Notes: a model not told the origin generated them from the letters alone. A DNA stretch of 56,772 nt from Acidimicrobiales bacterium (GCA_020629635.1 JAHDCX010000020.1:1-56772), one strand, 5' to 3'. Numbered from the stretch's first letter, positions 20,216 through 30,571 are shown. Translations and numbers: made by a program.

Positions 20216-20266
20216 GTTCCGCAGGCCGACACCTTGACCAATGTCGGTGGAAATGGGTTTGCACAC

Positions 20267-21484
20267 ATGAGTACTGACATGGACCGCATCGTCACGTGGC
20301 ACAACGGAGAGAAGACGCTTGGGCCGTTCTCTGCAGAGGAGATGGAGGCGCGCCAGGTGCGCCTTCGTGAGCACCTCGCCGCGGAGGAGATCGATGCGGC
20401 ACTGCTCACGAGCTACCACAACGTCTGTTACTACTCCGGTTTCATGTACTGCGCGTTCGGGCGCACCTACGGCTTCGTGGTGACCGCCGATTCGGCGACA
20501 TCGATCTCGGCCGGGATCGATGGTGGCCAGCCATGGAGGCTCACCCACGGCGACAACATCACCTACACCGATTGGCGCAAGGACAACTTCTTCCATGCCG
20601 TGCGCACGCTCGTTCCGGGAGCGAAGCGGATCGGGATCGAATTCGACGAGGTCAGTCTCGACCTGCTGGCCAAGCTCGAGGCGGCACTACCCGGCGTCGA
20701 GTTCGTCGACATCGGCACGGCGACGATGTGGATGCGCACGATCAAGTCCGCCGAAGAGATCGCCCACATCAAACATCTCACGCGCATCGCCGACATCGGA
20801 GGCGAAGCGTGCCGTGAGGCCATTGGTGTTGGAGTGCCCGAACACGAGGTCGCGCTCGCGTCGACGCAGGCGATGGTCCGCGAGATCGCCCAACTCCGTC
20901 CCTACACCGAGCTCATGGACACGTGGACCTGGTTCCAGTCCGGTATCAACACCGATGGCGCTCACAACCCCGTGACCAACCGGAAGATCGAACGCGGCGA
21001 CATCCTGTCGCTCAACTGCTTCCCGATGGTCTTCGGTTACTACGTCGCGCTCGAACGAACGCTGTTCGCCGAGACGGTTTCCGACGAACACCTGCGCCTC
21101 TGGAACATCAACGTCGAAGTCCACGAAGCAGGGTTGGAGCTGATCAAGCCCGGCGCAAAGTGCTCGGAGATCGCCGCCGCGCTCAACGACATCTACCGGG
21201 GATACGACCTTCTCAAGTACCGGTCATTCGGCTACGGACACAGCTTCGGCGTGCTGTGCCACTACTACGGACGTGAGGCTGGGGTCGAACTCCGTGAGGA
21301 CATCGACACCGAACTGAAGCCCGGGATGGTGGTCTCGATGGAGCCGATGATCATGATCCCCGAAGGTCAACCGGGTGCGGGTGGCTATCGCGAGCACGAC
21401 ATTCTCGTGATCAACGACGACGGCACCGTCGACAACATCACCGGATTCCCGTACGGGCCCGACGCGAACATCGTGGGCGCCTGA
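20267..21484 (+). CDS. Creatinase (creatine amidinohydrolase)
   Basis: This enzyme hydrolyses creatine to sarcosine and urea. The protein tracks the well-studied Pseudomonas putida creatinase closely: LLTSYHNVCYYSGFMYC, ISAGIDGGQPWR, MDTWTWFQSGINTDGAHNPVT, LSLNCFPMVFGYYVALERTLF, YGHSFGVLCHYYGREAG and VSMEPMIM. The catalytic His falls at residue 233 and the paired Glu residues at 262 and 359, almost the same numbering as the Pseudomonas enzyme. It has the pita-bread fold of M24 peptidases without the metal ligands. The start at 20267 is likely; ATG 20279 and TTG 20234 are also open. Its product feeds the sarcosine oxidase operon at 26049-31118. Confidence 0.95.
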   Translation: MSTDMDRIVTWHNGEKTLGPFSAEEMEARQVRLREHLAAEEIDAALLTSYHNVCYYSGFMYCAFGRTYGFVVTADSATSISAGIDGGQPWRLTHGDNITYTDWRKDNFFHAVRTLVPGAKRIGIEFDEVSLDLLAKLEAALPGVEFVDIGTATMWMRTIKSAEEIAHIKHLTRIADIGGEACREAIGVGVPEHEVALASTQAMVREIAQLRPYTELMDTWTWFQSGINTDGAHNPVTNRKIERGDILSLNCFPMVFGYYVALERTLFAETVSDEHLRLWNINVEVHEAGLELIKPGAKCSEIAAALNDIYRGYDLLKYRSFGYGHSFGVLCHYYGREAGVELREDIDTELKPGMVVSMEPMIMIPEGQPGAGGYREHDILVINDDGTVDNITGFPYGPDANIVGA

Positions 21485-21523
21485 GCGAACCGTGAACCCC
21501 GCGTCGCACGGGCGACAACCGCG

Positions 21524-22738
21524 ATGAACCGCCGGGTCACGGCCCTGCGTCGCTTGCTCACTTCCGGTGACGGCGAGGCGATTCGACAAGGCCTCACCTT
21601 GGCCGCAGGGATCGACGACGCCGACGTGTTCAGCCAACTCATTGACGGAGCGACAGCGCCTGCCCGAGTCGACGCGGACATCACGAAGTTCGGACGGTTT
21701 CCGAGCATCGGCCGAAACGCCGTGTTCGAGGCGGACGGCATCCATACGGCTCTGCTCGACCTCGCGCTCGTGCATCTCATTGCGGTCTCCGACCATTCGC
21801 TCCGTCAAGAGCTTCGATCCCTCGCGATCGGTGCGCCGACCAGCGCATCGGACGACGTCACCGTCGAGGTATGGCTCGACGGTTTGGAGCGACTCGAGAA
21901 TCTCACGCACCTGGACCTCTGGCTCCCGCAGAGTCAACCGGTTTCGCTCGCGCCACTCGAAGCGTTCCCGGCCCTCCGGTTTTTGCGTGTGCGCGGCGCA
22001 CGGATGCCGCCGGCACTTCCCCCGATGGCCACGCTCGAACGTCTCGAGGTCGGCCGGCTCAGCCTCACCGCAGACGCGGCGTATCCCCGCCTTCGAACCG
22101 TGCGGGGTTGGTTTGACGCTCCCGACGGTCTCGATGGGTCGCAACTTCCTGTGCTCGAAGACGTTGACGCCCGAAACGGCCTCGCTCTTCGGAACGTCGC
22201 GCGCTTGGGTCAGGTCCGGCTGAACAAGGGGCACTACGAGCTGCCCGGGTGTGAGGAGATCGATGCGCTGCACACGGCCAATGCCGGCTCTGTCGACGCC
22301 GCGGACCTGCGCCGAATCGGGACGCTCGACGGGGTCTGTCGAGGGCTGGACGTCTCTCGACTCGATCGGTTGGGGAAGGTGCGGATCCACGGCCAGGACC
22401 GATTCTCCGGCGGAACGTTCCCACCAGAAACCGAGCTCCTCTCCCCCACGGTGATGTTGCGCGGTCCGGAGCTGGTGACCCTCGGGAACCTCGGGGAACT
22501 GTCCGGTCTCGAAACGCTGCACCTCATCGATGTCACTGCGCCGCTGGATCTCGAGACGCTGCGTCATGCCCACGAATTGAAGGTCCTCGACTTGCGTGGC
22601 TCGACGGGGATCACCGACCTCGGTGCGCTCGTTGGTCACGCATCGATCGAGCAGTTGATCGTCGCTGGTTCAGGCGTGGCACACGTTCCGGAGCCGCTTC
22701 GAGCCTTGGTCGTCGAGTCACCGAACGGCGCCTCCTGA
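21524..22738 (+). CDS. Leucine-rich-repeat-like protein
   Basis: This 404-aa protein starts with a helical N-terminal part (1-115, e.g. LRRLLTSGDGEAIRQGLTLAAG and HSLRQELRSLAIG). A solenoid with irregular leucine-rich repeats follows: LERLENLTHLDLWLPQ, LEAFPALRFLRVRG, PMATLERLEVGRLSL, LGELSGLETLHLIDVTAPLDLETLRHAHELKVLDLRGSTGITDL. LRRs usually bind proteins. The first domain looks like those in proteins linked to MoxR/vWA systems (inference). It lies 39 bases after creatinase and its last 21 bases overlap the convergent vWA-peptidase gene. It has no signal peptide and is probably cytoplasmic. Confidence 0.75.
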   Translation: MNRRVTALRRLLTSGDGEAIRQGLTLAAGIDDADVFSQLIDGATAPARVDADITKFGRFPSIGRNAVFEADGIHTALLDLALVHLIAVSDHSLRQELRSLAIGAPTSASDDVTVEVWLDGLERLENLTHLDLWLPQSQPVSLAPLEAFPALRFLRVRGARMPPALPPMATLERLEVGRLSLTADAAYPRLRTVRGWFDAPDGLDGSQLPVLEDVDARNGLALRNVARLGQVRLNKGHYELPGCEEIDALHTANAGSVDAADLRRIGTLDGVCRGLDVSRLDRLGKVRIHGQDRFSGGTFPPETELLSPTVMLRGPELVTLGNLGELSGLETLHLIDVTAPLDLETLRHAHELKVLDLRGSTGITDLGALVGHASIEQLIVAGSGVAHVPEPLRALVVESPNGAS

Positions 22739-23938
22739 GCGTCCGTCTTCCATGGGAACGACCCGTTGACCGGCCAGTGCCGGTGGGTCGGCGCCTGCAG
22801 GGACCACCCAGAGCAATGGACAGCCGGGATCGACGCGTGGTGGACGAGCGAGTCCATCGGTGAGGTAGATCGCGCCGTCGAATGGCCGACTTGCGGCAGC
22901 GATCCACTCGAGTGCTGGGTCGAAGCGGGTGCCGCCTCGCCCGCCGATCGCCACTGGTGCCTCCCCGGCATAGGTCCAGTGCCGTCGAACGGCGAGATCA
23001 GATTCGACAACGGTCACCTCGGCGCCGCTCCGCCAGATGGAGCGGATCTCCGAGAAGAAGCGGCCGAGGCGGTCATCATCGACCGACCCGCTGGTGTCGA
23101 CGACCACCGCAATTCGCCGATGCCTCCGGACCCGGGTGCCCGGGTAGGTGCCGAATCGCTTGGACGGCCGACGGAGGGTGTTGGCGATTCTCGTGCGTTG
23201 ACTCGTCGACGCAAAGAGCCGGATGACTCGACGCCAATCGACCGACGGTTCGGTCTCGGCGATCAGTGCATTGACGAGGTCCTGAACCAGGCCGGGAGCG
23301 TCTCCGAACGTGTCGCCCGCACGCGCCTTTGCCTGCTTTGCCGCCTCGGCGAGCTCGGCTCGCGCCGCCGACGTGTCCACGGAGTCGGATTCGTCCCAAT
23401 CCCCGTGATCCGAGTGTTCGCCGTGCAGGCCTTCGGTGACGCCATCCTCCTCTTCGCGGAGCCGGTCGTAGTACCACTCCATTGTCTGGTCTGGAGGAAG
23501 TTCGATCTCGAACGAATCACAGGTGATCGCCCCGCGTGGCAGAGGCCAGTCCCCGATCAGCTGATTCACGACCAGGTCGGCTGCGAGATTGCGGATGCGG
23601 TGATCGGGCCGGGCCGCGTCGCTTCTCCCGACGTGATCGAGGAGCAGGTGAAGCACTTCGTGTTTGATGACGGCGACGCGCTCGGCCCGGTCGCTCAATG
23701 TGCCGACGAAGAACGACGGGTTGACACTGAGAAGCGGATGACCGTTGCGGTACCCGACGCCGGCGGTCTTAAGACGGGGGCCGACCTCCCGGCTGATCTG
23801 GACGAGCAGATGACCGAAGAAGGGCTCCTCGTGGATCAGATCGACGACGGCTCGACTGATCTCGTCGTGGGTCCGGTGAATCGCTTCGGACGTCGGTTCG
23901 AGCGTGTCCGACGGAGTTCCCGGTTGCTCCAGAGTCAC
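22718..23938 (-). CDS. DUF2201-type putative metallopeptidase with vWA-like domain
   Basis: This 406-aa protein has two parts. The N-terminal zincin-like domain carries HEVLH at 93-97 with a further His at 102 (HExxHxxxxH), in the context VAVIKHEVLHLLLDHVGR. The C-terminal von Willebrand A-like domain has a complete MIDAS: DTSGS (281-285), Thr in GGRGGTRFDP (337) and Asp in YLTDG (361). An acidic His/Asp-rich linker (about 160-190) joins them. This arrangement is the DUF2201 family, typically encoded beside a MoxR AAA ATPase, as here (10-base gap). The GTG start at 23938 is tentative. It presumably acts as a protease or metal-dependent adaptor driven by the ATPase. Confidence 0.85.
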   Translation of the reverse strand: MTLEQPGTPSDTLEPTSEAIHRTHDEISRAVVDLIHEEPFFGHLLVQISREVGPRLKTAGVGYRNGHPLLSVNPSFFVGTLSDRAERVAVIKHEVLHLLLDHVGRSDAARPDHRIRNLAADLVVNQLIGDWPLPRGAITCDSFEIELPPDQTMEWYYDRLREEEDGVTEGLHGEHSDHGDWDESDSVDTSAARAELAEAAKQAKARAGDTFGDAPGLVQDLVNALIAETEPSVDWRRVIRLFASTSQRTRIANTLRRPSKRFGTYPGTRVRRHRRIAVVVDTSGSVDDDRLGRFFSEIRSIWRSGAEVTVVESDLAVRRHWTYAGEAPVAIGGRGGTRFDPALEWIAAASRPFDGAIYLTDGLARPPRVDPGCPLLWVVPAGADPPALAGQRVVPMEDGRSGGAVR

Positions 23939-23948
23939 GGCGCGGCGT

Positions 23949-25040
23949 TCACAGTGCGTCCAGCGCCATCGCGGAAAGCACCGGATCCCGAAGCGCGGCG
24001 GCGAGCTGAGGCGACGCGTCCACGAGCAGTTTGCGATGCGCCATCAGGCGAAGGTCGTTGGGAAGCGAGTCGTGGCACAGAAACGCAACCAGCCGCCGAG
24101 CCTGATCGTCGGTCGGCACGAATGCCTCTCTGCCGACCTCGATCGTTAGCCGGGTGATGACCGCGTTCAGCCGATCGAGACGACGTCCCGTTTCGTCTTC
24201 GGCGAGGTCGGCGAGTCGTGCGGATGTCTCTGCGATGTGTCCGTCGAGGATCTGCGCTGGCGTGATCAGCGTCGGGACGCCATCGCGGACGTAGCTGAGG
24301 AACGCCGCCGCGGTTTCTTCGTCGAGCGCGCTGAGCGCAAGTGCGTGGACATGAGCTCGCTCGGCCGCAAGATCGTCGAGGTCAGCGATCTGGCCAAAGA
24401 ACTGCGTCAGCGAGCGAGGGGTGGTTCGTCGGCCAGTCACGATTTCGGGGTAGGTGAGCACGAAGGCGACACCTCGTTCGTCGACGCCGGCGCCGACGGC
24501 CCATCGGGCCCACGCCTTCGGGTCGAACTCCATGCTGACGTGCAACATCCGGGTGAGCATTGCGTCGTCGAGGGGGGTCACGCTGTAGTCGTGGCCCTCG
24601 GGGTTGGCCGTGGTGACGATGTGCCAGTCGTCGGGCAGGGCCCAGCTGACGAGTTCGTTGCGCTGGAGCAGCTGCATCAGGCCACGGAGGATGCGGTCGT
24701 CGGCACGGTTGAAGTCGTCGAGCAGGAGGATCCCTGGTCCGGGTTCGGTTGGGACCCAGTCGGGTGGCGCGAAGTGGGTGGATCCGTTCTCGATGACCGG
24801 GAGACCGTGAAGGTCGCCCATCTCCTCGAATTGCGCGGGTGCGGCGTATGCGAATCGCCAGCCGTTTCGGCGAGCGATGGCTTCGACGAGGGCGGTCTTG
24901 CCGATGCCGTGAATGCCCCAGATGCAGACCGGCGTTGGGTCCGAGGTGCCCTCGATGGAGCAGGTGACGATCCGTTCGACGAACGCACCGACCTCCTCGG
25001 AGGTGAGCGTTGCTCCATGGAGTCCTGATCGTGTGTTCAT
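23949..25040 (-). CDS. MoxR-type AAA+ ATPase
   Basis: This 363-aa ATPase has Walker A GIHGIGKT (42-49), Walker B ILLLDDFNRAD (104-114), sensor-1 region IVTTANPEGHDYSVTPLDDAMLTRMLHVSM and an arginine-containing TTPRSLTQFF sensor-2-like segment. LDEAMLTR-type wording and a RGLMQLLQRNEL insert fit the MoxR group of chaperone-like AAA proteins. The ATG at 25040 has GAGGGGG 6 bases upstream; the longer ORF has an atypical N-terminus. It is upstream of, and surely co-transcribed with, the DUF2201 gene, so a pair that remodels or cleaves a client is expected. Confidence 0.88.
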   Translation of the reverse strand: MNTRSGLHGATLTSEEVGAFVERIVTCSIEGTSDPTPVCIWGIHGIGKTALVEAIARRNGWRFAYAAPAQFEEMGDLHGLPVIENGSTHFAPPDWVPTEPGPGILLLDDFNRADDRILRGLMQLLQRNELVSWALPDDWHIVTTANPEGHDYSVTPLDDAMLTRMLHVSMEFDPKAWARWAVGAGVDERGVAFVLTYPEIVTGRRTTPRSLTQFFGQIADLDDLAAERAHVHALALSALDEETAAAFLSYVRDGVPTLITPAQILDGHIAETSARLADLAEDETGRRLDRLNAVITRLTIEVGREAFVPTDDQARRLVAFLCHDSLPNDLRLMAHRKLLVDASPQLAAALRDPVLSAMALDAL

Positions 25041-25083
25041 TGCGGCCCCCTCAACGCCGGACCGGCTCCCCGCATTCCGGGTG

Positions 25084-25965
25084 TCAATTGTCGAACAGCG
25101 TGGCGATGACGTCGCGGGCGTGAGCGACGACGCGGAGTGGGTCGTCGCGTCGGTGATTGCAGAACATCGACATCTGGGCGGCCAGGTCGTCGATCCGGAG
25201 GTAGCGCACGCCAGCGGGTTCGAAGGTCCGAACGCCGTCGGGCACGATGGCCGCGCCCTCGCCCGACGCAACGAGGCCGAGGATCGTCGTGTACTCCGTG
25301 GCTTCGATCAACGGGGCGTACTCGTGTCCATGGTCGCTCAGCAGTGCCGTGAGGTCTTCGTGGAGGGTCGGCGAGAGCCTCCGGTCGAACCCGATGAGGG
25401 GCCGATCCGCGAGCTCGCTCACGGTGATGGCGTCAGCGGTCGTCTCGTCGTCGGGACCAACCGCGAGGAACAGTTGCTCGACGAGAAATCGTTCGCCGGT
25501 GAGGTCGTCGTCGTCCGCTGGGGTTCGGGAAATCCCGATGTCGATCTCGCCGGACCGAAGCGCATCGACCTGTGCCCGGCTCGACATGATCGTCAGGTCG
25601 TGGTGCACCTTGGGCCAGTGCTGGCGATGGGCTCGCAGGTACTTCGGCATGACCTGGAATGCGGCCGAATCGACGAACGCGAGACGGAGCAGGCCTCCTT
25701 CGCCACTGCGGAACTCGTCCATCACCCGCTCCGCAGCGTCAGCGGCCGTGACGAGGCGGAGGGCTTGGGTCCGGAACACGTCGCCTGCGGCGGTGAGCGA
25801 CACCCGGCGAGTCGTTCGCTCGAACAGTTGCACGCCGAGTTCGGACTCGAGCAGGCGGATCTGCTGGCTCAGGGGCGGTTGCGCCATGTGCAGCCGCTCG
25901 GCGGCCCGACCGAAGTGGAGCTCGTCGGCGACGGCGAGGAAGTAGCGCACCCGTTGAAGATTCAC
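25084..25965 (-). CDS. LysR-family regulator, divergent from soxBDAG
   Basis: This 293-aa LysR regulator has an N-terminal winged helix (MNLQRVRYFLAVADELHFGRAAERLHMAQPPLSQQIRLLESELGVQLFERTTRRVSLTAAG in consecutive pieces). Its C-terminal substrate-binding domain contains DIGISRTPADDDDLTGE and RPLIGFDRRLSP. It is divergently placed 83 bases from soxB, the usual arrangement for a regulator of the adjacent operon. Sarcosine, creatine or a betaine may be the co-inducer (inference). The GTG start has no clear Shine-Dalgarno site. Confidence 0.92.
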   Translation of the reverse strand: MNLQRVRYFLAVADELHFGRAAERLHMAQPPLSQQIRLLESELGVQLFERTTRRVSLTAAGDVFRTQALRLVTAADAAERVMDEFRSGEGGLLRLAFVDSAAFQVMPKYLRAHRQHWPKVHHDLTIMSSRAQVDALRSGEIDIGISRTPADDDDLTGERFLVEQLFLAVGPDDETTADAITVSELADRPLIGFDRRLSPTLHEDLTALLSDHGHEYAPLIEATEYTTILGLVASGEGAAIVPDGVRTFEPAGVRYLRIDDLAAQMSMFCNHRRDDPLRVVAHARDVIATLFDN

Positions 25966-26048: not shown

Positions 26049-27365
26049 ATGGCAGGAATCTTCCGTCGTAACGGCGCAGGCGACGCGCCAGCTCGCTACT
26101 CCGCACCGCAGCTCGCACGCAAGGGGCTCACCGGGGAGGAGTGGCCCCGCGTGTGGCGCGACCACGAGATCAAACCGGCCTACGACGTGATCATCATCGG
26201 CGGCGGCGTGCACGGCCTCGCGACCGCCTACTACCTCGCGACCAATCACGGGATCACCAACGTTGCGGTGCTCGACAAGGGCTACCTCGGCGGCGGAGGG
26301 TCGGGCCGAAACACGGCGATCGTTCGGTCCAACTATCTGACCCCCGAAGGCGTCGCGTTCTACGACCGGTCGCTGTCGCTCTACAACTCGATGGCGGCCG
26401 ACCTGAACATCAACGTGATGTTCTCCGAGCGCGGTCACCTCACGCTCGCACACACCGACTCGGCACTGCGCACGATGCACTGGCGTGCCGAGGTCAACAA
26501 GCTCCAGGGCATCGACTCCTCGGTCATCGACCCCGACGAGGTGAAGAAACTCGCGCCGAGTCTCGACGTCAGCACTCACCCTCGCTACCCCATCCTCGGG
26601 GCGCTCTATCACCCACCGGGTGGCATCATCCGACACGACGCCGTCGTGTGGGGGTACGCCCGTGGCGCCGACCATCGCGGCGTGCACCTGCACCAGAAGA
26701 CCGAGGTGCTCGACATCCTCGTCGAAGGCGGCGACGGGCCTGGCGGCAAGGGGGCAGGCGGCAAAGTCACGGGTGTGCGAACCAACAAGGGCGACATCTC
26801 TGCCCCGATCGTCGTGAACTGCACGGCCGGCTGGGGATCGCTGATCTCGAACATGGCAGGCGTGAAGCTGCCGATCAACACCCACCCGCTCGAAGCCGCA
26901 GTGACCGAACCGGTCAAGGTGTTTTTGCCGACGGTCGTCGTCTCGGGGTCGTTGCACGTCTACGTGAGCCAGACCGATCGCGGCGAGCTCGTGTTCGGGG
27001 CGTCGGTCGACCCGCTGGCCACCTACTCGATGCGGGGGTCGCTCAGCTTCACCGAAGAGCTGGCCGGCCACATCCTCGAACTCATGCCTGGCATCTCGAA
27101 GATGCGACTTCTGCGCCAGTGGGCGGGCCTCTGCGACATGACGCCCGACTACTCCCCGATCATGGGCTTCACCCCCGTCGAGGGGCACCTGACCGATGTC
27201 GGCTGGGGCACCTACGGCTTCAAGGCCGGCCCTGTCTCCGGTGAGCAAATGGCGGAGTGCATTGCGACCAACACCACGCCAAAGCTCATCGCCCCCTTCG
27301 CCCTCGAGCGCTTCAGCACCGGTCAACTCGTCGGCGAAAAGGGCGCTGCGGCGGTCGGACACTAG
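26049..27365 (+). CDS. soxB: Sarcosine oxidase beta subunit
   Basis: This FAD-containing subunit of heterotetrameric sarcosine oxidase oxidises the N-methyl group of sarcosine. At 438 aa it has the dinucleotide motif VIIIGGGVHGLATAYYLA, followed by the family signature LDKGYLGGGGSGRNTAIVRSNYLTPEG and a C-terminal GLCDMTPDYSPIMGFTPVEG...GWGTYGFKAGPVSGE. An N-terminal extension (FRRNGAGDAPARYSAPQLARKGL) is usual in this subunit. It is the first gene of soxB-soxD-soxA-soxG. An unusual internal GGDGPGGKGAGGK loop (about residues 229-241) is not conserved in relatives I remember. Confidence 0.95.
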   Translation: MAGIFRRNGAGDAPARYSAPQLARKGLTGEEWPRVWRDHEIKPAYDVIIIGGGVHGLATAYYLATNHGITNVAVLDKGYLGGGGSGRNTAIVRSNYLTPEGVAFYDRSLSLYNSMAADLNINVMFSERGHLTLAHTDSALRTMHWRAEVNKLQGIDSSVIDPDEVKKLAPSLDVSTHPRYPILGALYHPPGGIIRHDAVVWGYARGADHRGVHLHQKTEVLDILVEGGDGPGGKGAGGKVTGVRTNKGDISAPIVVNCTAGWGSLISNMAGVKLPINTHPLEAAVTEPVKVFLPTVVVSGSLHVYVSQTDRGELVFGASVDPLATYSMRGSLSFTEELAGHILELMPGISKMRLLRQWAGLCDMTPDYSPIMGFTPVEGHLTDVGWGTYGFKAGPVSGEQMAECIATNTTPKLIAPFALERFSTGQLVGEKGAAAVGH

Positions 27366-27380
27366 GAGGAACCAGACCCG

Positions 27381-27731
27381 ATGCTTCTCGTACCGTGTCC
27401 GCACTGCGGGCCACGCAACCAATCCGATCTCCGACTCGTTGGCGCCACCGTGCCCCGACCCGATCCGAACGCGACGACGCCCGAGGAGTGGGGCGACTAT
27501 CTGTACCTCCGGGACAACCCGGCGGACTGGATCGAAGAGACCTGGTACTGCCGGGCGGGGTGCCGCCGCTACTTCACGCTCACCCGCCATCAGGGCACCA
27601 ACGAGTTCCGGAATCCCCCAATGCCCGGCGACAAGGTCGGAACGGCGACGTACACGACGATCAGCGTCGGCAGCTCGGGTTCGCAACCCGGGGCCAACAT
27701 CGAACCCCACACGACCGGAGGTGCGTCGTGA
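27381..27731 (+). CDS. soxD: Sarcosine oxidase delta subunit
   Basis: This 116-aa zinc-binding structural subunit has its first ligand pair in CPHCG (Cys6, Cys9). The second pair is usually His-x3-Cys in a WxHxxGCRRWF motif. Here the motif reads WYCRAGCRRYF, giving Cys57 and Cys61, so the site appears to be all-cysteine. GDYLYLRDNP is the family's middle motif. AGGAGG lies about 10 bases before the ATG. Its stop overlaps the soxA GTG start by 4 bases (GTGA). Confidence 0.93.
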   Translation: MLLVPCPHCGPRNQSDLRLVGATVPRPDPNATTPEEWGDYLYLRDNPADWIEETWYCRAGCRRYFTLTRHQGTNEFRNPPMPGDKVGTATYTTISVGSSGSQPGANIEPHTTGGAS

Positions 27732-30571
27732 CCGAACGGCTTCAACCACAGAGTGGCGAAGTCATCGACCGCTCGACGCCGCTGCCCTTTGTGTGGAACG
27801 GCAAGGAGTGCACAGGGTACGTCGGAGACACGATCGCCTCGGCGATCATGGCGAACGGGCACCGGATCTTCGCCCGGTCGATGAAGTATCACCGGCCTCG
27901 AGGACTGCTGACTGCGGACTTCTGGGACCCGAACGCCTTCGTTCAAGTCGACGACGACCCCAATGTGCGGTCGGGCCACCGCCTGCTCGAAGTGGGCGTC
28001 ACGGTGTCACCGCAGAACGTGTGGCCGTCGCTCGACGTCGACGTGAAGGCCGCCAATCAGCTCGTTGGCCGCTTCCTCTCCCCCGGCTTCTACTACAAGA
28101 CGTTCATCCACCCGCAGAAGCTGTGGCCTGCGTACGAGAAGGTGCTGTCGACTTTCGCACCGGGCGGTGAGGTCGACATCGAGACGCCGCTCGCCTATCA
28201 CGACAAGCGCTACACCCACCCTGACGTCGTGGTCGCTGGCGGTGGGCCGGCCGGCATGGCGGCTGCGTTGGCCGCAGCTGAAGCGGGAGCGTCGGTCCTG
28301 TTGGTCGAGCACGAACATGGCCTCGGAGGTCACCTCCGCTGGGGGTCCGACGAGGAGCGTGCCGTCGCTGCGGATCTCGAGGCCAAAGTGCGCGCCGCCG
28401 GTGTCGAAGTCCTGACCGATTCGACGGTCACCGGCCGATACGAAGACAACTGGGTCGGCATCGTGCAACGGAGCCATCCGATCGCCGTCGAGCGGTTGAT
28501 CAAGGCCCGAGCGAAGACGTTGGTCGTCGCCGCGGGTCTGATCGAACGCCCCTATGTGTTCGCCGGCAACGACCGCCCTGGTGTGATGCTGTCAGGCGCC
28601 GTTCGACGACTCATCAACCTCTACGCCGTGAAGCCTGGTGAGCGCGCCGTCGTCTTCAGCGCCAACGACTCAGGCGATGCATCGGTGGCCGACCTCGAGC
28701 GCGCTGGCGTCGAGATCGCGGCTGTGGTCGATGGGCGAACAACGGGCAACGTGATCGCCACCCACGGTTCGCAGAAGGCGATCAAGTCTGTCGAGCTGTC
28801 CGGCGGCCGGACCGTCGAGGCTGACCTTCTCGTCACCGCAGTGGGTTGGACGGCGCCGACATCGCTGCTGAACATGGCTGGCGACCGCCCGGTCTACGAC
28901 CCTGCCGTCGCACGCTTCTTCCCATCGGGGACACCCGACAACGTGCTCGTGACCGGCGGGCTCGCCGGAGACGGCACACTCGACCAACTCATCGAGCACG
29001 GGTCAGCGACGGGTTCGCTCGCCGCAGGCCGCGCGGTCGCGATCGCCCATCGCCTCCAGGCGGCGACGGTCCGTGCGGCGGCGGTCGAGGGCGCTGAGCC
29101 CGATCTTGCGGCCGACGTGCGAACCCCGCTCGGCCGTGATCCCCATCCCGAACTCTTCCGGTCGACGACGCACGGAATCGTCGACTACTCCGAAGACGTT
29201 GGCTCGAAGGACCTCGTCTCGGCGGCCAAGGAGGGCTACGACTCCGTCGAACTGCTCAAGCGGTACACGACCGCGACGATGGGCCCGGCGCAAGGCAAGC
29301 TCGAGACGGTCAACACGGTCGCGGTGCTCGCCGAAGCTCGAGGCGAGACCATTGCCGAGGTCGGCACGACCATCTGGCGACCGCCGTACGCCCCAATCAC
29401 CCTCGGCGCGCTCGCTGGCCGGATCTTCGAGCCGGAGCGGGTCTCGTCGATCCACCCGTGGCATGTTGCCAACGGCGCGAAGCCGATCCTCGCCGGGCAG
29501 TGGATCCGCCCCGAGCACTATGGCGACCCCGCCGGAGAGGTCACCAACGTCCGCACGAACGTCGGCATCATCGACGTGACGCCACTCGGCAAGCTCGTGC
29601 TCGACGGCCCTGACGTCCCGAAGCTGCTCAACCTGCTGTACACGAACTCGTGGAACAAACTCGACGTCGGCTCGGTGCGCTACGGCCTGATGTGTGCCGA
29701 AGACGGTGTCGTCATGGACGACGGCGTCACCGGCCGCCTCAGCGAGAACCGGTGGCTGATGACGACCACGTCGTCGGGTGCGGGCAGTGTCTGGGAATGG
29801 GCCGAGAACTGGCTCCAGACAGCGCACCCCGACTGGGAGGTGTTCGTGACGCCGGTGACCACGGCGTACACGTCGATCAACGTCGCCGGGCCGAAGTCGC
29901 GTGAGCTCATGAGCCGCCTCACCGACATCGATCTCGATCCCGACGCGTTCGGCTACATGAAGGTGCGGACTGGCGAGATCGCAGGCGTCGACGACTGCAT
30001 CATGTGGAGGATTGGTTTCACCGGCGAACTCAGCTATGAGCTGCATGTTCCTGCTGGCTACGGCCTCCATGTCTGGGAGGCGCTGCTCGAAGCGGGCGCT
30101 GATCTCGGTGTTGCGCCGTTCGGTCTCGAAGCGCAGCGGATCATGCGGATCGAGAAGGGCCACTTCATCGTCGGCCAGGACACCGACGGACTCACCAAGG
30201 CACCGACCACGGGTCTCCAGCCGCTGATCAAGCTCGACAAGGACGACTTTGTCGGCAAACCCGAGCTGACGTGGGCAATGGAGCAGGACCTGCCGGTGCT
30301 GGTGTCGGTGAAGATGACCGACAAGACGATCGTCCCGCCCGAGGCCAGCCAGATCGTGCGGCCCGGTACCAACGAGATCCTCGGCCGCATCACCAGCTCT
30401 CGGTACTCGCCGACGCTCGGCGAATCGATTGGGCTCGCACAGGTGCCCCCCGAACTGGCATCTGCCGGGTCGGAGCTCACCGTCGTGTTGACGTCGGGAG
30501 AGCGGACCACGGCCGTGGTCCAAGAACATCACGCCCATTTCGACCCCGAAGGAGCACGTCTCCGTGTCTGA
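27728..30571 (+). CDS. soxA: Sarcosine oxidase alpha subunit
   Basis: This 947-aa subunit has an N-terminal ferredoxin-like domain (1-110, FVWNGKECTGYVGDTIASAIMANG) and a dinucleotide-binding domain with VVVAGGGPAGMAAALAAAEAG (about 167-187). The long C-terminal GcvT-like domain (about 560-947; FEPERVSSIHPWHVANGAK, GIIDVTPLGKLVLDGPD, GFTGELSYELHVPAGYG, RIEKGHFIVGQDTDG) transfers the one-carbon unit to tetrahydrofolate. The GTG start at 27728 has GGAGGT 6 bases upstream and overlaps soxD by 4 bases. The longer ORF begins inside soxB out of frame and is not credible. With soxB it yields glycine, 5,10-methylene-THF and peroxide. Confidence 0.95.
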   Translation: MTERLQPQSGEVIDRSTPLPFVWNGKECTGYVGDTIASAIMANGHRIFARSMKYHRPRGLLTADFWDPNAFVQVDDDPNVRSGHRLLEVGVTVSPQNVWPSLDVDVKAANQLVGRFLSPGFYYKTFIHPQKLWPAYEKVLSTFAPGGEVDIETPLAYHDKRYTHPDVVVAGGGPAGMAAALAAAEAGASVLLVEHEHGLGGHLRWGSDEERAVAADLEAKVRAAGVEVLTDSTVTGRYEDNWVGIVQRSHPIAVERLIKARAKTLVVAAGLIERPYVFAGNDRPGVMLSGAVRRLINLYAVKPGERAVVFSANDSGDASVADLERAGVEIAAVVDGRTTGNVIATHGSQKAIKSVELSGGRTVEADLLVTAVGWTAPTSLLNMAGDRPVYDPAVARFFPSGTPDNVLVTGGLAGDGTLDQLIEHGSATGSLAAGRAVAIAHRLQAATVRAAAVEGAEPDLAADVRTPLGRDPHPELFRSTTHGIVDYSEDVGSKDLVSAAKEGYDSVELLKRYTTATMGPAQGKLETVNTVAVLAEARGETIAEVGTTIWRPPYAPITLGALAGRIFEPERVSSIHPWHVANGAKPILAGQWIRPEHYGDPAGEVTNVRTNVGIIDVTPLGKLVLDGPDVPKLLNLLYTNSWNKLDVGSVRYGLMCAEDGVVMDDGVTGRLSENRWLMTTTSSGAGSVWEWAENWLQTAHPDWEVFVTPVTTAYTSINVAGPKSRELMSRLTDIDLDPDAFGYMKVRTGEIAGVDDCIMWRIGFTGELSYELHVPAGYGLHVWEALLEAGADLGVAPFGLEAQRIMRIEKGHFIVGQDTDGLTKAPTTGLQPLIKLDKDDFVGKPELTWAMEQDLPVLVSVKMTDKTIVPPEASQIVRPGTNEILGRITSSRYSPTLGESIGLAQVPPELASAGSELTVVLTSGERTTAVVQEHHAHFDPEGARLRV

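Follow-up and report, generated by a model that had tools for sequence, protein, structure and literature searches.

A leucine-rich repeat gene recurs beside the genes of a MoxR-type ATPase and a DUF2201 zincin-vWA protein in several bacterial phyla

In the pairs formed by MoxR ATPases and von Willebrand factor A (vWA) proteins, the ring ATPase pulls a client that is held by the metal ion-dependent adhesion site (MIDAS) of the vWA domain. Such pairs are widespread and their clients are mostly unknown, so that a recurrent partner with a domain of its own would provide a handle on targeting. In the MoxR-vWA ternary systems, as far as the accessible parts of their descriptions go, the third component is VMAP, iSTAND, FtsH, a beta-propeller or TERNS3, and the vWA has fused or linked effectors (PMC7159879, PMC8195603). 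Here, we analyse a stretch of 56,772 nucleotides from an Acidimicrobiales bacterium (GCA_020629635.1 JAHDCX010000020.1:1-56772), referred to at its full length as the window, which encodes a leucine-rich repeat (LRR) protein, a DUF2201 protein and a MoxR-type AAA+ ATPase side by side (Table 1). We find that these three genes are a real gene set recurring in several bacterial phyla, and we lean towards regarding their products as a machine that remodels proteins inside the cell at the expense of ATP, with an LRR adaptor that can be exchanged.

Compared with what the accessible parts of the ternary descriptions contain, the module is alike in combining a MoxR AAA+ ATPase and a vWA protein with a faster-evolving third gene and in being patchily distributed. 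It differs in that its vWA partner is a zincin-vWA protein of the DUF2201 type, which lacks effector domains at its C-terminus, that its third component is an LRR protein, in a few cases with BRCT, and none of the named types, and that its gene order and strand vary and its hosts are mainly Bacteroidota; no DUF2201 or LRR class was found in those parts (PMC7159879, PMC8195603). Because the ternary logic is common to both and the two defining features, the type of the third component and the vWA effectors, are absent, the module is a new variant of the ternary theme and not a member of it. In the open-access literature, DUF2201 appears as incidental annotation only, and the combination of MoxR with leucine-rich gave no such system.

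With NorQ-NorD, as with CbbQ-CbbO and RavA-ViaA, the module shares a ring ATPase and a MIDAS-bearing vWA co-chaperone, and Foldseek matches the vWA part of the DUF2201 protein to, among others, a chain of the NorQD complex (9qhe_G). By contrast, the client of NorQ-NorD is an operon-mate enzyme and an LRR partner is absent; to our knowledge, NorD consists of an N-terminal domain and a vWA domain, without an HExxHxxxxH site. In NorQD, the target is bound by the MIDAS and a finger of the vWA protein enters the ring, i.e. the NorQ pore (PMC9976466). The best sequence match of the ATPase in the PDB is midasin (Rea1; 7.5e-8), which, unlike the window ATPase, is a eukaryotic protein of giant size that unites six AAA domains in one chain. 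Midasin binds its clients via the MIDAS. Within MoxR, the DUF2201-associated ATPases may correspond to the PA2707 subfamily.

Relatives were collected with an alignment of the ATPase as the sole query against 84,980 genomes, giving 197 loci, the best 80 of which were retained; these are the loci closest to the window's ATPase by similarity and no random sample, and loci with ATPases at least 90% identical were removed as redundant. The best 80 are mostly from Bacteroidota and include Myxococcota and other deltaproteobacteria, Burkholderiales and other proteobacteria, Verrucomicrobiota and a Synechococcus, the names being those of record titles, several of which belong to metagenome bins and may be wrong. 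ATPase and DUF2201 genes stand together in 47 of the 70 non-redundant loci, and at 29 of these 47 an LRR gene is the direct neighbour, in 26 cases on the same strand and within 150 bp. LRR neighbours were counted with a small hand-made profile, with reversed decoys as control, except that the call at one locus (L042) rests on homology to the LRR protein of another (L095). LRR genes account for 32 of 98 adjacent genes versus none of 147 farther genes (Fisher p = 5e-15), which rules out a chance LRR neighbourhood, and Pfam independently assigns LRR families to 21/34 and 19/31 selected neighbours. It could still be argued that the LRR gene is a passenger which tends to lie nearby without any functional link, since in the window it is on the opposite strand and 18 of the 47 loci have no adjacent LRR gene. 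Given the excess over farther genes, the close spacing and common strand of 26 of the 29 neighbours, the conservation of the linkage across phyla and the dedicated N-terminal domain of the LRR proteins, we regard this as very improbable.

The sequence-only reading had described the three genes as a three-part module and had allowed that it would be a coincidence if LRR genes were never near DUF2201/MoxR pairs in other genomes. The adjacency at 29 of 47 loci from several phyla goes against coincidence, as does the presence of the same trio in two congeners. That reading also proposed that the LRR protein would recognise a target, which the ATPase would deliver and the zincin domain would act on. 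The trio is found in 3 of the 11 genomes of the genus and in none of the other eight; among 98 relatives, a homologue of the LRR protein occurs only in two congeners, both of which also have a close DUF2201 protein (the congener records bear the title uncultured Acidimicrobiales). Gene order and orientation in these two are the same as in the window, with the LRR gene convergent with DUF2201-AAA. Their flanks differ, one trio being bordered by recO-side genes and glycyl-tRNA synthetase and the second by other genes (gene names assigned by reading the sequence), and therefore the three genes stay together while the surroundings change. Note also that the gene calls are mechanical and that, judged by their conservation in the congeners (about 39, 57 and 65% identity for LRR, DUF2201 and AAA, respectively), all three open reading frames (ORFs) are real genes. 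The arrangement read earlier from the window is reproduced by the ORFs: the 3' end of the LRR ORF shares 21 bp, tail to tail, with the DUF2201 ORF, and 10 bases separate the DUF2201 gene from the AAA gene upstream of it.

Table 1. Coordinates of the cassette and its flanking genes, counted from the first letter of the window
Feature	Position	Strand	Details
LRR protein gene	21524..22738	+	404 aa; helical N-terminal domain aa 1-105, LRR solenoid aa ~118-390; signal peptide not evident
LRR protein N-terminal domain	21524..21838	+	consensus DxxxIxQGxELA...FDxLLxxV; unnamed in Pfam and NCBIfam
DUF2201_N + DUF2201 protein gene	22718..23938	-	406 aa; N-terminal zincin-like domain, C-terminal vWA
Hairpin segment before vWA of DUF2201 protein	23120..23209	-	aa 244-273, ...RRPSKRFGTYPG...; conserved
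MoxR-type AAA+ ATPase (AAA_5) gene	23949..25040	-	363 aa
Left flank: M24 creatinase/prolidase-type gene	20234..21484	+	syntenic in seven congeners
Right flank: LysR-family regulator gene	25084..25965	-	syntenic in seven congeners

The ATPase and the DUF2201 protein are the constant and tightly coupled core of the set, and the LRR protein is its variable part. Where the AAA locus has no DUF2201 gene (17 genomes), exactly one is present elsewhere in the genome in 17/17 cases, and the distance matrix of the ATPase correlates with that of DUF2201 at r = 0.855 (maximum 0.17 in 2000 permutations), a value to which shared species descent contributes. In each of the 15 locus pairs compared, conservation is lowest in the LRR protein, which occurs in at least two architectures and is sometimes encoded elsewhere or missing beside the pair. 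In many Saprospiraceae and relatives (L036, L055, L069-L072, L077-L094; trans loci L110-L126), the ATPase and DUF2201 genes are single-copy, unlinked and situated by unrelated genes, and this therefore suggests a core function beyond that of an accessory cassette.

The same two-gene core is carried by phages and plasmids (phrog_1314 with phrog_1297; gp028-gp029 of Bacillus phage AR9), and the window DUF2201 protein matches phrog_1314 over its full length (2.6e-52). Unlike the window, these pairs are only about 21-36% identical to it and have no annotated LRR gene in the neighbourhoods examined. An origin of the close trio from a plasmid or phage is ruled out, since the ATPase matches from that side do not exceed about 34% identity, and a viral home of the LRR protein is likewise ruled out, no relative of it being present in viral_contigs. 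As an aside, the phage DUF2201 proteins (phrog_1314; AR9 gp029, L214 5252-6676) are labelled 'HNH endonuclease' in PHROGs and GenBank; the AR9 record's own note gives VWA-like and metallopeptidase domains, and the label looks wrong and has spread. In a second actinobacterial clade (L015-L017, L149, L151), AAA and DUF2201 are also encoded together; this clade is distant from the window, has an HHxxH or HExxHLLRDHH site, and its third gene is a different one, encoding a GEWH-type domain to which ankyrin-like repeats are joined in L151. The motif of this third gene is approximately GEWHxVxxxxGxLxxxxHDxExERALxALG (L016 6828-7586, L017 6359-7111, L149 7022-7924, L151 8441-11527). Given the separate third gene of the second clade and the occurrence of the two-gene core in phages, an exchangeable third component looks like a general property of the ATPase-DUF2201 core.

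For the LRR protein, only LRR families match in Pfam, with LRR_14 at 1.5e-5, below the curated cut-off. The LRR reading is nevertheless secured because the AlphaFold model (mean predicted local distance difference test score, pLDDT, 82.6) begins with a helical domain and continues as a solenoid, for which TLR9, internalin A, LRRC8 and SHOC2 are the best Foldseek matches, and because of its homologues. The N-terminal domain, of about 100 residues, is common to the LRR partners of Myxococcota, Burkholderiales and Flavobacteriales relatives, being duplicated in the long ones, and 47 of the 53 distinct copies in which position 16 is occupied have Asp or Glu at it. It is found in 17/18 genomes of the window's clade, including two without an LRR gene beside the AAA locus; its copies are sometimes distant from the core, with several per genome. 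Among 396 sampled genomes of the phylum, only one has it, the window's own. It is found in none of 33 Saprospiraceae-type (Bacteroidota-type) genomes, which have other LRR types or none, and with the 17/18 above as positive control the domain is thus ruled out as universal. Besides, a BRCT-like domain is present in several LRR partners (L047, L048, L091, L095 and others); among LRR proteins of bacteria, this seems unusual.

The cassette was also said earlier to be placed like an insertion, and this is borne out by the congeners. In seven of them, the creatinase-type and LysR genes are neighbours without the cassette. In G001, they are separated by 18 bp; G006 and G008 have about 0.5 kb there, with a 129-aa ORF that is intact in G008, G005 and G009 have a methyltransferase-like gene of 333 aa, and G007 and G010 an insert of two genes. 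Being empty in one congener and differently filled in six, the junction (window 21484-25084; L176-L182) is a variable spot in the genus, with the window trio as one occupant. No integrase was seen in the window cassette, and its G+C content of about 65-66% equals that of the surroundings, so that no composition anomaly points to recent import.

Such a patchy occurrence in the genus at a variable site, together with an LRR protein that diverges fastest of the three, with several LRR paralogues per genome (8 N-terminal-domain matches over 5 contigs in one Myxococcota genome) and with the MoxR-vWA-third-component logic as set out in the accessible part of one ternary description (PMC7159879), would fit a conflict, or defence, system. 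There the LRR protein would sense an invader or its protein, MoxR-DUF2201 would act as a threshold switch, and the metallopeptidase would execute or trigger the response, as proposed for the VMAP/iSTAND ternary systems. By contrast, the vWA has no fused effector domain, in Saprospiraceae the genes of the core resemble housekeeping genes in being single-copy and scattered, and the hosts of module relatives comprise not only the filamentous Saprospira and Aureispira but also single cells with small genomes. Moreover, the three proteins have no credible PADLOC 2.0.0 match and the matches among neighbours are isolated single cases, so that a known defence system is ruled out. On balance, we consider a defence role possible and hold it tentatively.

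The ATPase matches AAA_5 at 1e-8 (35.3 bits versus a cut-off of 22 in Pfam) and has the motifs GIHGIGKTA (Walker A), ILLLDDFNRA (Walker B) and TTANPEG (sensor 1), which are kept in the congeners. In the DUF2201 protein, DUF2201_N (PF13203; 4e-21, 76.2 bits, cut-off 23.2) and DUF2201 (PF09967; 2e-21, 76.6 bits, cut-off 26.4) both pass the curated cut-offs. The earlier claim that an HExxHxxxxH motif and a complete vWA MIDAS stand in one protein is confirmed by HEVLHLLLDH, with the metal site H93-E94-x-x-H97-x4-H102 in the N-terminal domain, and by D281-T-S-G-S285, T337 and D361. The AlphaFold model (mean pLDDT 88.5) places HEVLH on a helix of the N-terminal domain and has a C-terminal vWA, with which the protein terminates at aa ~396. 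This vWA part gives Z of about 11 to I domains in a structure search; in whole-chain fold searches with the model, the listed matches are all vWA and none is to the N-terminal metal domain. Directly before the vWA and between two strands in the model lies the strongly conserved segment RRPSKRxGTxPG, a hairpin that is a candidate for a finger entering the ATPase pore or contacting the ring, by analogy with the finger of NorD.

Among 54 aligned DUF2201 proteins, the His triad, Asp121, Trp235 and the MIDAS D-T-S-x-S are invariant, and Glu94, which the window protein keeps, is retained in most and replaced in eight, three of them second-clade actinobacterial pairs with His (L015-L017). Because the His triad is invariant and Glu94 is sometimes lost, metal binding is likely universal in the family and peptidase chemistry only usual. 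Proteolysis by the DUF2201 protein is plausible but not universal, a minority having lost the catalytic Glu, and thus cleavage cannot be what every member does. It is conceivable that the pair is a chaperone for maturation or metal insertion, remodelling a dedicated enzyme with the His triad carrying metal and no peptide being cleaved, and with the LRR proteins as clients or scaffolds. Most characterised MoxR-vWA pairs (NorQD, CbbQO, RavA-ViaA) are indeed maturation factors, and the His triad persists where the catalytic Glu is lost. However, most members keep HExxH, the loci have no constant metalloenzyme gene alongside, and metal-cofactor clients are not typically LRR proteins, so we deem this explanation improbable.

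Returning to the remodelling machine with an exchangeable adaptor, the mechanism that we infer is as follows. It builds on the observed linkage of the genes, the co-occurrence and co-divergence of the ATPase with DUF2201, the conservation of the metal-site and MIDAS residues, the variability of the LRR protein, the variable insertion site and the precedent of NorQD. The AAA protein would form a MoxR-type ring, and the DUF2201 protein would be its obligate vWA co-chaperone with an additional metal site, probably a peptidase in most members. The LRR protein would join them in a complex as the specificity subunit, its solenoid binding the client; in the type found in the window, the N-terminal LRR domain with its acidic residue 16 would dock on the DUF2201/AAA core, possibly via the MIDAS. 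ATP hydrolysis would then pull on or unfold the bound client, and the metal site may cut the client or an inhibitory segment of it, which is plausible for the members with Glu94. A core of one ATPase and one DUF2201 protein would serve one or several LRR adaptors, and the client would be either foreign, as in defence, or the cell's own, as in quality control or maturation. More speculatively, rapidly evolving LRR receptors, some of them encoded away from the core, might address one MoxR-DUF2201 metallopeptidase acting as an unfoldase-protease, possibly against phage or faulty host proteins.

Several points weigh against this mechanism. Five members of the LRR group have Gln (L035, L059, L073, L078) or Leu (L060) in place of Glu94 with the His triad intact, and these HQxxH or HLxxH proteins are likely inactive peptidases that retain metal. 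The LRR types vary from clade to clade, so that a single docking mode is unlikely, and the fast evolution of the LRR proteins can also mean weak constraint on the solenoids. In addition, an adjacent LRR gene is lacking at 18 of the 47 loci where the pair is joined and at the majority of those where it is split, and the pair may thus have other work. The LRR link opens the function of the DUF2201 family to direct tests, with the N-terminal domain as the handle on targeting. If the LRR proteins are receptors, they would represent another bacterial use of the solenoid known from plant and animal immunity, here with a ring ATPase and a metallopeptidase-like partner.

Finally, we note that a sarcosine oxidase alpha-type protein (1104 aa) is encoded at 27257-30571, close to the creatinase-type gene, and that the genes around it include those for major facilitator superfamily and ProV-like transport, consistent with creatine/betaine catabolism.

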